Assembly (NCBI GenBank): GCA_964035015.1
Contig: OZ036002.1
Span: forward strand, 5,894,377 to 5,958,376
DNA from: Corallium rubrum
Lineage: Eukaryota; Cnidaria; Anthozoa; Scleralcyonacea; Coralliidae
Direction of reading: 5' to 3'
DNA length: 64,000 nucleotides
Under the pieces are notes generated by a model, which was not told the origin of the DNA, ran no database searches, and saw only the letters and a list, made by a program, of their open reading frames with translations. The translations under genes and the position numbers were made by a program. Shown piece after piece: positions 30,621 through 42,878 of this stretch (within the stretch, counting starts at the first letter, position 1; the number at the start of each line of letters is the position of its first letter).

Positions 30621-30827
30621 AATCAACGTAACGGGAATAAACCCGTATAAATATAAGTCCTTTCCCCGGTGGGCGTTTTTCTCCTTTTTCGGTTATAATT
30701 CCATGACACGCAGTCACCAAATATGCATATTGAGCCCACCATATATGTGTACGCAACATGTACACAACATAATGTACTGCATATAATACACGATATAGAG
30801 CCTTACTATATACTACAACCATACACA

Positions 30828-32313
30828 AGCATACACAAGCTTCAACAAGCATCAACAACCATCAACAACCATCAACAACCATCAACAAGCATACACAATC
30901 ATACACAAGCATACACAAGCATCAACAAGCATCAACAACCATCAACAACCATCAACAAGCATCAACAACCATCAACAAGCATCAACAAGCATCAACAACC
31001 ATCAACAGGCATCAACAACCATCAACAACCATCAACAACCATCAACAACCATCAACAACCATCAACAACCATCAACAACCATCAACAACCATCAACAAGC
31101 ATCAACAAGCATCAACAAGCATCAACAAGCATCAACAAGCATCAACAAGCATCAACAGGCATCAACAACCATCAACAACCATCAACAACAAGCATCAACA
31201 ACCATCAACAACCATCAACAAGCATCAATAACCATCAACAAGCATCAACAAGCATCAACAGGCATCAACAACCATCAACAAGCATCAACAGGCATCAACA
31301 AGCATCAACAAGCATCAACAAGCATCAACAAGCATCAACAAGCATCAACAAGCATCAACAAGCATCAACAAGCATCAACAAGCATCAACAAGCATCAACA
31401 AGCATCAACAGGCATCAACAGGCATCAACAACCATCAACAACCATCAACAACCATCAACAACCATCAACAACCATCAACAGCCATCAACAAGCATCAACA
31501 AGCATCAACAACCATCAACAAGCATCAACAGGCATCAACAAGCATCAACAAGCATCAACAAGCATCAACAAGCATCAACAGCCATCAACAAGCATCAACA
31601 AGCATCAACAAGCATCAACAAGCATCAACAAGCATCAACAAGCATCAACAGGCATCAACAACCATCAACAACCATCAACAACCATCAACAACCATCAACA
31701 ACCATCAACAACCATCAACAACCATCAACAAGCATCAACAAGCATCAACAAGCATCAACAGGCATCAACAACCATCAACAACCATCAACAATCATCAACA
31801 ACCATCAACAACCATCAACAACCATCAACAACCATCAACAAGCATCAACAAGCATCAACAAGCATCAACAAGCATCAACAAGCATCAACAAGCATCAACA
31901 AGCATCAACAAGCATCAACAAGAATCAACAAGCATCAACAAGCATCAACAAGCATCAACAAGCATCAACAAGCATCAACAAGCATCAACAAGCATACACA
32001 AGCATACACAAGCATCAACAAGCATCAACAAGCATCAACGAGCATCAACGAGCATCAACGAGCATCAACAAGCATCAATAACCATCAACAACCATCAACA
32101 ACCATCAACAATTATCAACAACCATCAACAAGCATCAACGAGCATCAACAGGCGTCAACAAGTATCAACAACCGTACACAAGCATCAACAAGCACCAACA
32201 AGCACCAACAAGCATCAACAAGCATCAACGAGCATCAACAGGCGTCAACAAGTATCAACAACCATACACAAGCATCAACAAGCACCAACAAGCATACACA
32301 AGCATAAACAAGC
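30828..32313. repeat. Decamer satellite, left arm (ATCAACAAGC)n
   Basis: About 148 tandem 10-bp units, mostly ATCAACAAGC, ATCAACAACC or ATCAACAGGC, with a few ATACACAAGC units at the edges. Because 10 bp is not a multiple of three, all three forward frames read through as 10-residue repeats (STSINKHQQA). The 452-aa ORF here is an artefact of stop-free composition. Confidence 0.97.
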
Positions 32314-32540
32314 ATTGTTGGAGACTTGCTTTTCTGCAAATCCGTCATTGCATTTGCAGCTTGAAGAGCACTTTGCAAATTTCGAGATGCATTTACAGCA
32401 GTTTTTATATGTCCGTTTGGGGTGTCTTTTTTCAATTCCTTTAGCTTTTTGGAATTGATTCGACATCGGCAAATACAATCTTTTATCTTTCTTCGTCTTT
32501 GAAGAATTCTATTTCTGATTCATGATTTGTACCTTTGTTA
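32314..32540 (-). pseudogene. Decayed copy of the OTU gene's Cys-rich segment, left arm
   Basis: On the minus strand it reads TNHESEIEFFK..., then a damaged CRCRINSKK-like part and CCKCISKFAKCSSSCKCN. This matches the intact segment at 35047-35245 but has frame breaks and ends in NDGFAEKQV next to the satellite. It mirrors the copy at 37146-37350. Confidence 0.75.
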
Positions 32541-32914
32541 TTTGAGAGTGTTGAAAGTAAGAATGTTGTCGTAGCCAATGTTTTGGATAAAGTAAAGTGG
32601 AAAGGTAGTAAACTGCGAAAATTTTCTCTACTTCTTTAAATACTGACTGATAATGAAATATTGACTTGGAGGCCTCCACTCGAAACGTTACCACCTTTCT
32701 ACACTGCTTTATTATCTGTTGTTTCTGGATTTTAATGTGGCTTCAGCTTGTTTGTGAATGTAAAGCATAATAATAAGCGGAATCAAGCATTTTCTTCAGC
32801 AATTATTTCTTCTACACAGAGAAACTTTTATGAAATTTTCATCCAATTTTCAACCAAATTAAACCGAAATTAAAAGGCTCGTTTTTCTGTCAATGATCAA
32901 TTTTCTGATAATAA

Positions 32915-40300: not shown

Positions 40301-42270
40301 GTTGATTGTTGTTGATGCTTGTTGATGGTTGTTGATGGTTGTTGATGCCTGTTGATGCTTGTTGATGCTTGTTGATGCTTGTTGATGCTTGTTGATGCTT
40401 GTTGATGCTTGTTGATGCTTGTTGATGCTTGTTGATGGCTGTTGATGCTTGTTGATGCTTGTTGATGCTTGTTGATGCCTGTTGATGCTTGTTGATGCTT
40501 GTTGATGCTTGTTGATGCTTGTTGATGCTTGTTGATGCTTGTTGATGCTTGTTGATGCTTGTTGATGGCTGTTGATGCTTGTTGATGCTTGTTGATGGTT
40601 GTTGATGCCTGTTGATGCTTGTTGATGCTTGTTGATGCTTGTTGATGGTTGTTGATGCCTGTTGATGGTTGTTGATGCTTGTTGATGCTTGTTGATGCTT
40701 GTTGATGGCTGTTGATGCTTGTTGATGCTTGTTGATGGTTGTTGATGCTTGTTGATGGTTGTTGATGGTTGTTGATGGTTGTTGATGCTTGTTGATGCTT
40801 GTTGATGCCTGTTGATGCTTGTTGATGCTTGTTGATGCTTGTTGATGCTTGTTGATGCTTGTTGATGCTTGTTGATGCTTGTTGATGCTTGTTGATGCTT
40901 GTTGATGCTTGTTGATGGCTGTTGATGCTTGTTGATGCTTGTTGATGGTTGTTGATGCCTGTTGATGCTTGTTGATGCTTGTTGATGGTTGTTGATGCCT
41001 GTTGATGCTTGTTGATGCTTGTTGATGCTTGTTGATGGTTGTTGATGCCTGTTGATGCTTGTTGATGCTTGTTGATGCTTGTTGATGCTTGTTGATGCTT
41101 GTTGATGCTTGTTGATGCTTGTTGATGCTTGTTGATGGTTGTTGATGGTTGTTGATGCCTGTTGATGGTTGTTGATGCTTGTTGATGCTTGTTGATGGTT
41201 GTTGATGCTTGTTGATGGCTGTTGATGCTTGTTGATGCTTGTTGATGCTTGTTGATGCTTGTTGATGCTTGTTGATGGTTGTTGATGGTTGTTGATGGTT
41301 GTTGATGGTTGTTGATGCTTGTTGATGCTTGTTGATGGTTGTTGATGCTTGTTGATGGTTGTTGATGCTTGTTGATGCTTGTTGATGCCTGTTGATGCTT
41401 GTTGATGCTTGTTGATGCTTGTTGATGCTTGTTGATGCTTGTTGATGCTTGTTGATGCTTGTTGATGGTTGTTGATGCCTGTTGATGCTTGTTGATGCTT
41501 GTTGATGCTTGTTGATGCCTGTTGATGCTTGTTGATGCTTGTTGATGGTTGTTGATGCCTGTTGATGCCTGTTGATGCTTGTTGATGCTTGTTGATGCTT
41601 GTTGATGCTTGTTGATGCTTGTTGATGGTTGTTGATGGTTGTTGATGGTTGTTGATGGTTGTTGATGGTTGTTGATGGTTGTTGATGGTTGTTGATGGTT
41701 GTTGATGGTTGTTGATGCCTGTTGATGGTTGTTGATGCTTGTTGATGCTTGTTGATGGTTGTTGATGCTTGTTGATGGCTGTTGATGCTTGTTGATGCTT
41801 GTTGATGGTTGTTGATGCTTGTTGATGCTTGTTGATGGTTGTTGATGCTTGTTGATGCTTGTTGATGGTTGTTTATGCTTGTTGATGGTTGTTGATGGTT
41901 GTTGATGCTTGTTGATGGTTGTTGATGGTTGTTGATGCCTGTTGATGCTTGTTGATGCTTGTTGATGCTTGTTGATGCTTGTTGATGCTTGTTGATGCTT
42001 GTTGATGGTTGTTGATGGTTGTTGATGGTTGTTGATGCTTGTTGATGGTTGTTGATGCCTGTTGATGGTTGTTGATGCTTGTTGATGGTTGTTGATGCTT
42101 GTTGATGCTTGTTGATGGTTGTTGATGCTTGTTGATGCTTGTTGATGCTTGTGTATGCTTGTGTATGCTTGTGTATGCTTGTGTATGCTTGTTGATGGTT
42201 GTTGATGGTTGTTGATGGTTGTTGATGCTTGTTGATGCTTGTTGAAGCTTGTGTATGCTTGTGTATGGTT
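37353..42270. repeat. Decamer satellite, right arm (GTTGATGCTT)n
   Basis: About 490 tandem decamers, the inverse complement of the left-arm repeat. The variants are GTTGATGCTT (most), GTTGATGGTT, GTTGATGCCT and GTTGATGGCT, plus rare markers (GCTGATGCTT at 37971 and 39861; GTTGATTGTT at 38441 and 40301). The array is over three times longer than the left arm's. The true length may be compressed by assembly. Confidence 0.97.
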
Positions 42271-42392
42271 GTAGTATATAGTAAGGCTCTATATCGTGTA
42301 TTATATGCAGTACATTATGTTGTGTACATGTTGCGTACACATATATGGTGGGCTCAATATGCATTTGGACTGCGTGTCATGGAATTATAACC

Positions 42393-42878
42393 CCTTTTTC
42401 GCTGTAACAAGGCGGCGTTATTTCAATATTGTTAAATAAAGGGGGGGGGGGGGGGCAGAACAGCTAGAAATATTAAGGTAAGAATGCGCACGATTTTTCA
42501 AAAGAAAATTATATTCAATTATAATTAGGCAATGGAATAATTTGTTTTATGCTACGATGCTATAAAATTTATATATATATATATATATATATATATATAT
42601 ATATATATATATATATATATATATATATATATATATGTTCTAACTCACCTGACAATTCAATTTTTTTTGTCTGTTATATTCATTACGTGTATCGTGTAAT
42701 GTATGTCCCAATTTCCACATGACATACGAGACTTTTTAATAACTCAACGAGTGACGTTATCACCCCGTCCCCCCCTCCCTCCACCGTCTGATCTGAAATT
42801 GTGGCCAAAGGTTGAAAGGAACAAACTGGATGTTGTTCAGTCGTGAAATAGATTCGCAGTAATGTTTAAAAACATCTG
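42393..42878. promoter_or_regulatory. 5' flank of ITPK1, separated from RSPH9 by the transposon
   Basis: Begins with the right target duplication CCTTTTTC. It contains a G14 run at 42441-42454, a TA tract at about 42571-42635 and a C-rich patch near 42765. Before the insertion, RSPH9 and ITPK1 start codons would have been about 0.6 kb apart, so a shared divergent promoter is plausible. No TATA element is assignable with confidence. Confidence 0.45.

Follow-up and report, generated by a model that had tools for sequence, protein, structure and literature searches.

Foldback elements of the TU type in sea urchins generate 8-bp target-site duplications and carry 15-bp tandem repeats in the outer domain of their long inverted repeats. 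Sea-urchin foldback elements are cited in the account of Tetris, a foldback element of Drosophila virilis with 8-10 bp duplications, in which tandem repeats within long inverted ends seed satellites (PMC4079207). According to the available sections of the papers cited, the Tm1 Mutator/Foldback elements of root-knot nematodes combine a transposase of the Mutator-like element (MULE) type with composite ends, variable ~14-bp tandem repeats and non-autonomous forms (PMC3169594), and Muta1 and Muta5 of Aedes aegypti are MULEs with 8-9 bp duplications, inverted ends of ~145-151 bp and subterminal repeats of 9-15 bp (PMC5225508). The MuDR-6_HM group (group 14) comprises MULEs of cnidarian hosts whose transposase and OTU (Ovarian Tumour) domain lie in one open reading frame (ORF), as described in PMC6446971.

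Here, we describe an 11.7-kb unit with satellite-bearing inverted arms from the cnidarian Corallium rubrum, located in a stretch of 64,000 nucleotides (contig OZ036002.1, positions 5,894,377 to 5,958,376; hereafter the window). An initial annotation had considered its layout to be unlike any known. This claim is not supported, since foldback elements and MULEs with tandem repeats in long inverted ends have been published (PMC3169594, PMC4079207, PMC5225508), and it is further weakened by the OTU-bearing cnidarian MULE group already in print (PMC6446971). The unit is very probably a non-autonomous foldback derivative of a MULE cut-and-paste transposon.

Results

The unit has inverted ends and is bounded by identical 8-mers, with CCTTTTTC on each side (Table 1). 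When positions 30691-30830 were compared with 42392-42257 in inverted orientation, the ends matched at 97%. Homology of 92-95% extends through the inner arms, to ~33847 on the left and from ~35954 on the right, giving arms of ~3.1 and ~6.4 kb. The termini, flanking 8-mers and arm lengths reported in the initial annotation were thus borne out. Within the right inner arm, ~36347-36574 (228 bp) is oriented opposite to the left arm; a second, 36-bp stretch near 36178-36213 is also inverted relative to the left arm. Both inner arms hold the CXC tail of a transposase gene, in inverted orientation, and, as judged by eye, a reverse-transcriptase-like stretch of the non-long-terminal-repeat (non-LTR) retrotransposon type. 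When the two satellite arrays were spelled out as decamer variants, the order of units was by eye similar at their outer ends and different in mid-array, which fits a single ancestral arm that was copied in inverted orientation and then expanded separately on the two sides.

Table 1. Features of the window element, with positions numbered from the first nucleotide of the window
Feature	Positions	Strand	Program
8-bp target-site duplication, left copy CCTTTTTC	30683..30690	.	
Left terminal segment of inverted repeat; outermost ~32 bp common to the 9-bp and 18-bp satellite subfamilies	30691..30830	+	
Left decamer satellite array, 148.8 copies, period 10, CATCAACAAG/C units	30825..32315	+	Tandem Repeats Finder
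Left inner arm; antisense CXC coding piece (~32343-32531) beside the array	32316..33847	+	
CAGA/ACTG microsatellite separating left arm from gene fragment	33837..34132	.	
3' fragment of MULE transposase gene (OTU domain and CXC region; DDE core absent)	34272..35315	+	
Transposase C-terminus continued in another frame; 13-bp unit x3 alongside (35246-35283)	35236..35622	+	
Right inner arm, inverted left arm with 228-bp segment flipped; sense CXC piece (~37147-37321)	35954..37351	-	
Right decamer satellite array, 490.8 copies, period 10	37352..42262	-	Tandem Repeats Finder
Right terminal segment of inverted repeat	42257..42392	-	
8-bp target-site duplication, right copy CCTTTTTC	42393..42400	.	

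Further copies were sought in the 474-Mb assembly that holds the window, where all match counts are lower bounds. The 140-bp terminus gave at least 28 matches. A 32-base terminus pattern allowing up to 3 mismatches was found in at least 26 places and its backwards control in none, which argues that these matches are not due to chance. The version of the terminus that adjoins an 18-bp satellite was found in at least 20 places (control, 0), three of them common to both pattern lists. Sixteen copies with two ends, including the window copy, were scored for target-site duplication, nine of them by eye from printed flanks. The duplication was exact over 8 bp in 11 of the 16 (window, C176, C1:39.59 Mb, C1:42.8 Mb, C32:8.667 Mb, C150, C18:14.34 Mb, C20:13.46 Mb, C34:316 kb, C46 and C34:100 kb) and matched at 6 or more of 8 positions in 15 of the 16, with 7/8 in C82 and C12:10.25 Mb and 6/8 in C23 and C15. 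In the 11 exact 8-mers, positions 5 and 6 were always A or T. This count excludes copies with one damaged end (C56:1740199, C20:16241340 and C18:15740673) and single or partial ends (C85, C37, C32:9056703, C186, C28, C136, C13:6919293, C1:50328674, C1:70452549, C18:1446332 and C8:47420238).

Flanks were joined for nine sites, and for three of these a full-length empty paralogue was found with breakpoints at the termini. The empty counterpart of a 95-kb unit on C1 lies at C8:4840307-4840506 and matches both flanks at 100/100 with the overlap GATCAATG; that of C82 matches at 99/99 and 100/100; and that of C23 at 99/100 for each flank with an 8-bp overlap. The duplicated 8-mers of C82 and C23 deviate from their empty sites by single substitutions. 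No empty site was recovered for C176, C12:7.94 Mb, C1:39.59 Mb, C32 or C12:10.25 Mb among 40 scored of 4355 candidates, a set that lacked the own sites of several copies. Copies of this family insert with 8-bp duplications. The initial annotation had proposed a non-autonomous cut-and-paste element and a genome search with its terminus; the copies, exact duplications and empty sites given above uphold the proposal.

Each of the eight copies of the decamer type that were read, including three in which an end is damaged, has decamer arrays on both sides. Copies that have only the outer ~32-34 bp in common with these carry other satellite units: a 9-bp unit (C1:39.59 Mb, C1:42.8 Mb, C32:8.667 Mb, C186 and C32:9.05 Mb), an 8/16-bp unit (C12:10.25 Mb), a different 10-bp unit (C37) or an 18-bp unit (C28, C34:100 kb, C15 and C150). 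In C82 (4.8 kb) and C1:39.59 Mb (8.7 kb), hardly any sequence separates the two inverted arrays that make up the copy.

Whether the arms contribute to movement is evenly balanced: there is about an even chance that they are passive by-products of replication slippage. Such an origin is favored by the constancy of the outer 32 bp while the unit varies between subfamilies, by array lengths that range from ~49 to more than 1100 units, and by the single end C85, which has no adjoining array of score 250 or more. Against it, an array lies just inside the ends in every one of the 12 two-ended copies for which one or both arms were read (the locus L030 included; the other 4/16 were read at their tips only), and short subterminal tandem repeats are reported for 10/12 MULE families with long terminal inverted repeats (TIRs) in the available text on Aedes (PMC5225508).

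A broader proposal, which we hold only tentatively, is that the family acts as a machine for dispersing satellite DNA: the outer ~32 bp would suffice for movement, arrays behind the ends would move whole, and the unit would be replaced with each new subfamily. If these outer ~32 bp are all that the transposase requires, perhaps aided by contacts between CXC domain and satellite, any array that had grown there would be carried along. This proposal would cover the coreless inverted satellites of 4.8-8.7 kb and perhaps the 95-kb C1 interval (C1:42818542-42913867; L022 and L023), which combines family ends with a 9-bp array on either side and an exact 8-bp duplication. About 10 kb of that interval was read from each end. 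The right part is 97% identical over 1.9 kb to sequence downstream of the transposase in C186, the left part contains reverse-transcriptase-like fragments as judged by eye, and the flank is a multi-copy repeat. The interval may have moved whole, or a smaller element may have grown in place.

Two side observations concern arrays elsewhere in the genome. C20:16241340-16261712 (L015-L017) is a 20-kb composite in which the right end is damaged and three decamer arrays comprise 795, 357 and 74 units. Arrays of period 10-18 (10 or more copies) were seen in the 1.5-kb flanks of 8/20 transposase loci read (L029, L030, L034, L036, L038, L040, L042 and L047; two overlap), a count made without matched control loci.

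A relative that shares the termini and encodes a transposase, which the initial annotation had suggested looking for, was found in several forms. In C28, the terminus at 561626 is followed by an 18-bp array to ~564550 and then by an uninterrupted frame (1088 aa open) encoding transposase, OTU and CXC; its left end was identified. Decayed transposase genes lie between two termini in C15:16172101-16180999 (8.9 kb, 6/8 duplication), with an 18-bp array on the left and, by eye, also on the right, and in C150:168664-196898 (28.2 kb, 8/8 duplication); both contain stops. In C186, the transposase frame is broken, and a 9-bp array follows from ~274343 to near the terminus at 288271 (read except for 274651-278399); no left end for it was present among the matches of either terminus pattern search.

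Protein searches placed the OTU part within the same product. Among 555 candidates from 5.8 billion proteins searched, 30 relatives of the window OTU protein were listed at an expect value (E) of 0.001 or below, and in two of these, P0017 and P0029, the OTU part is preceded by a further region, that of the transposase. A search with the upstream region of P0017 listed 45 proteins, P0017 included, many of 800-960 aa; named organisms among them were Montipora foliosa, Paramuricea clavata and Dendronephthya gigantea, presumably all anthozoans. The full-length protein of the family combines a DDE transposase, an OTU domain and a Cys-rich CXC domain in a single chain. Neither the terminus nor the transposase had a match in scans of viral contigs.

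The window copy retains the OTU/CXC part of this gene, with a change of frame, and lacks the DDE-coding part. The frame 34350-35315 (322 aa) contains the OTU motifs DGNCFF and GHYDAL and a Cys-rich CXC region. It starts at an internal ATG, upstream of which coding similarity already begins, and at ~35257-35279, at the 13-bp unit, the coding frame shifts into the next ORF. Aligned with full-length relatives, the fragment occupies the OTU and CXC positions. These two findings, the matching positions and the similarity preceding the ATG, indicate that the OTU piece is a transposase tail and not a separate protease gene. The OTU motifs and Cys-rich tail of the initial annotation therefore stand, whereas its single gene is not independent and complete: it is a 5'-truncated, frame-disturbed piece of transposase. 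Capture of a host or cargo gene, as in Pack-MULEs, was rejected, since the fragment aligns collinearly with the transposase gene of the family itself in C186 (71.7% over 1366 columns). In the window OTU model, the predicted local distance difference test (pLDDT) is mostly above 80 and the best match in a fold search was OTUD3 (E 1.8e-6); when solved structures were searched by sequence, three weak matches to viral OTU-bearing proteins appeared (best E 0.065). A Pfam match of ORF 35236-35622 to Pro_dh (E 0.0045, below cut-off) was judged to be chance.

The closest copy of the fragment, 97% identical over 970 columns, is in C18:15740673-15745470, which consists of an array, a frameshifted OTU/CXC fragment and a second array, and whose right junction is the same as the junction between inner arm and array in the window. 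Differences between the window and C18 fell on codon positions 1/2/3 in a ratio of 6/10/9 (n = 25), and those between the window and C186 in a ratio of 57/44/109. This pattern is suggestive of past constraint, with none visible among the 25 differences that followed the split of window and C18. We regard it as very unlikely that the window element itself makes an active, selected OTU accessory protein, for instance one that counters host silencing. The open frame of 322 aa, its catalytic motifs and the confidently modelled OTU region speak for such a protein. The internal Met start, the C-terminus in another frame, the frameshift in the nearest copy and the lack of a third-position excess speak against it, although with only 25 differences weak selection is possible.

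The class of the transposase was examined by sequence and by structure. A sequence search of P0017 against solved structures returned no matches, and the Pfam matches of the transposase, PF10551 (E 0.0041) and DDE_Tnp_ISL3 (E 0.00091), were both below cut-off. A model of P0055 (mean pLDDT 79.5, predicted template modelling score [pTM] 0.56) was used for a fold search, in which the top five matches were all the ISCth4 transposase (best E 5.9e-9), followed by OTU domains (OTUD3 at rank 6, E 1e-5). We take ISCth4 to be an IS256-family transposase. In P0055, the catalytic residues may be D237 (in FDHTFK), D307 and E435, and DLFH at 329-332 resembles the D(2)H motif of MULEs. IS256 is described as a prokaryotic family related to MULEs (PMC5225508). 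Assignment to the MULEs is supported jointly by the result of the fold search, by the 8-bp duplication and by the long inverted repeats.

The hAT and P superfamilies both also give 8-bp duplications. The foldback form has moreover arisen in several superfamilies, with Galileo placed in the P superfamily according to a reference title cited in PMC3169594. A hAT or P foldback element carrying the OTU piece as cargo is nonetheless extremely unlikely, since the protein encoded by transposase-bearing relatives with near-identical termini is of the DDE-OTU-CXC type, and ISCth4 is its best match among solved structures. Long satellite-bearing inverted arms could also form locally, by inversion or palindromic duplication of host DNA, and the window site has no empty paralogue, but the dispersed two-ended copies, their exact duplications and the three empty paralogues broken at the termini leave this explanation with virtually no standing.

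Several observations weigh against the unit being a derivative of a MULE. Transposition was deduced from sequence. The two-ended copy C12:7940107 lacks a duplication (3/8), and joined flanks of the window's own site matched only the window itself, with no empty paralogue. Sequence by itself gives weak support for the MULE assignment, the PF10551 match being under the cut-off. No right end of C28 was found up to 578800 (~10 kb past the gene) or, by pattern search, elsewhere on C28, and both two-ended copies with a transposase, C15 and C150, carry stop codons. No element of the decamer subfamily with a complete transposase was found in the genome; the transposase-bearing relatives share ~28-32 terminal bp with the window and not the decamer.

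Under the MULE derivation that we favor, transposase from an intact relative would bind the conserved terminal ~32 bp, and perhaps the satellite units as arrays of weak sites, cut both ends in trans and insert the element with an 8-bp stagger. The OTU domain probably works within the full transposase, for example by deubiquitinating transposase or repair factors, and would have no such role in the truncated copy. In the available part of their paper, the authors who described Ginger propose that repair, in the course of transposition or afterwards, may be influenced by OTU and Ulp1 domains (PMC2836005). As to origin, loss of the 5' coding part from a transposase-bearing element was probably the first step; the right arm of a simpler element, such as C18:15740673-15745470, would then have been copied in inverted orientation to the left side, a reverse-transcriptase-like stretch may have been taken into both arms, and the two arrays would have grown independently. 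This order of events is proposed because the C18 right junction is shared and the CXC tail is inverted in both inner arms.

Elsewhere in the window, a second, small set of decamer repeats in inverted orientation (ATGAGAGTTG), flanked by CCTCGTTTGACCGGGG-like sequence, lies at 15404-15934 and may belong to a foldback element or miniature inverted-repeat transposable element (MITE) of another family. Minisatellites are present at 22575-24058 (20-bp unit, 75 copies) and 14540-15267 (45-bp unit, 16 copies), and a host gene at 50104-51783 on the minus strand encodes a MAP10 N-terminal domain (Pfam E 6.4e-20).

Discussion

The family combines features of MULEs and of foldback elements. Its 8-bp duplications, exact in 11 of 16 copies and at least 6/8 in 15, fall within the 8-11 bp of MULEs, it has long TIRs, and its transposase has the DDE fold of Mutator and IS256, recognized by fold search and only weakly by sequence profile. 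Like foldback elements, it has long composite inverted repeats with internal tandem repeats around a middle domain.

Other groups with an OTU domain differ in their ends. Helitrons and Helentrons also bear OTU domains, and have neither inverted repeats nor target-site duplications; the inverted repeats and 8-bp duplications found here set the family apart from them. Ginger1 resembles the family in having an OTU domain at the transposase C-terminus and Hydra among its hosts, and differs in its 4-bp CCGG/CCGT duplications, TGTNR ends and integrase-type transposase (PMC2836005, available sections). With 8-bp duplications and GGTTATA ends, the present family is not a member of Ginger1.

Among MULEs, the MuDR-6_HM group shares with the family a cnidarian host and a MULE transposase bearing an OTU domain; it is listed with no TIR and no indicated target-site duplication, and its description in the available part of PMC6446971, on which our comparison is based, does not mention satellite arms. 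Rehavkus, described in the same part of that source, is a MULE relative with a minisatellite before its 3' end, and differs in its PHD finger, 9-bp duplication and arthropod and annelid hosts (PMC6446971). Tm1 differs in its 9-bp duplications and asymmetric 7-bp outer motifs, and an OTU domain is not reported in the available text (PMC3169594). Muta1 and Muta5 have nine repeat copies, as against hundreds in the window, and the accessible description does not mention OTU (PMC5225508). Tetris has ~220-bp units, and in the available sections neither a transposase nor a conserved ORF was found and its superfamily was left undecided by the authors (PMC4079207).

In the open-licence literature searched, we did not find a family that joins tandem repeats in foldback-like ends and an OTU-bearing MULE transposase with kilobase satellites, exchange of satellite units and coreless satellite transposons. 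The family bears on an old problem, the route by which short satellites disperse along and among chromosomes and the part that transposons may have in seeding them. Different satellites lie here between termini that agree almost entirely over ~32 bp, and a mobile copy made up almost wholly of satellite, C82, has an empty site at nucleotide precision. Because these shared ends, the C82 empty site and a frame-intact transposase occur in the same genome, a route from transposon to satellite becomes testable. The family also places a ubiquitin-type protease domain, OTU, and a CXC domain inside a MULE transposase.

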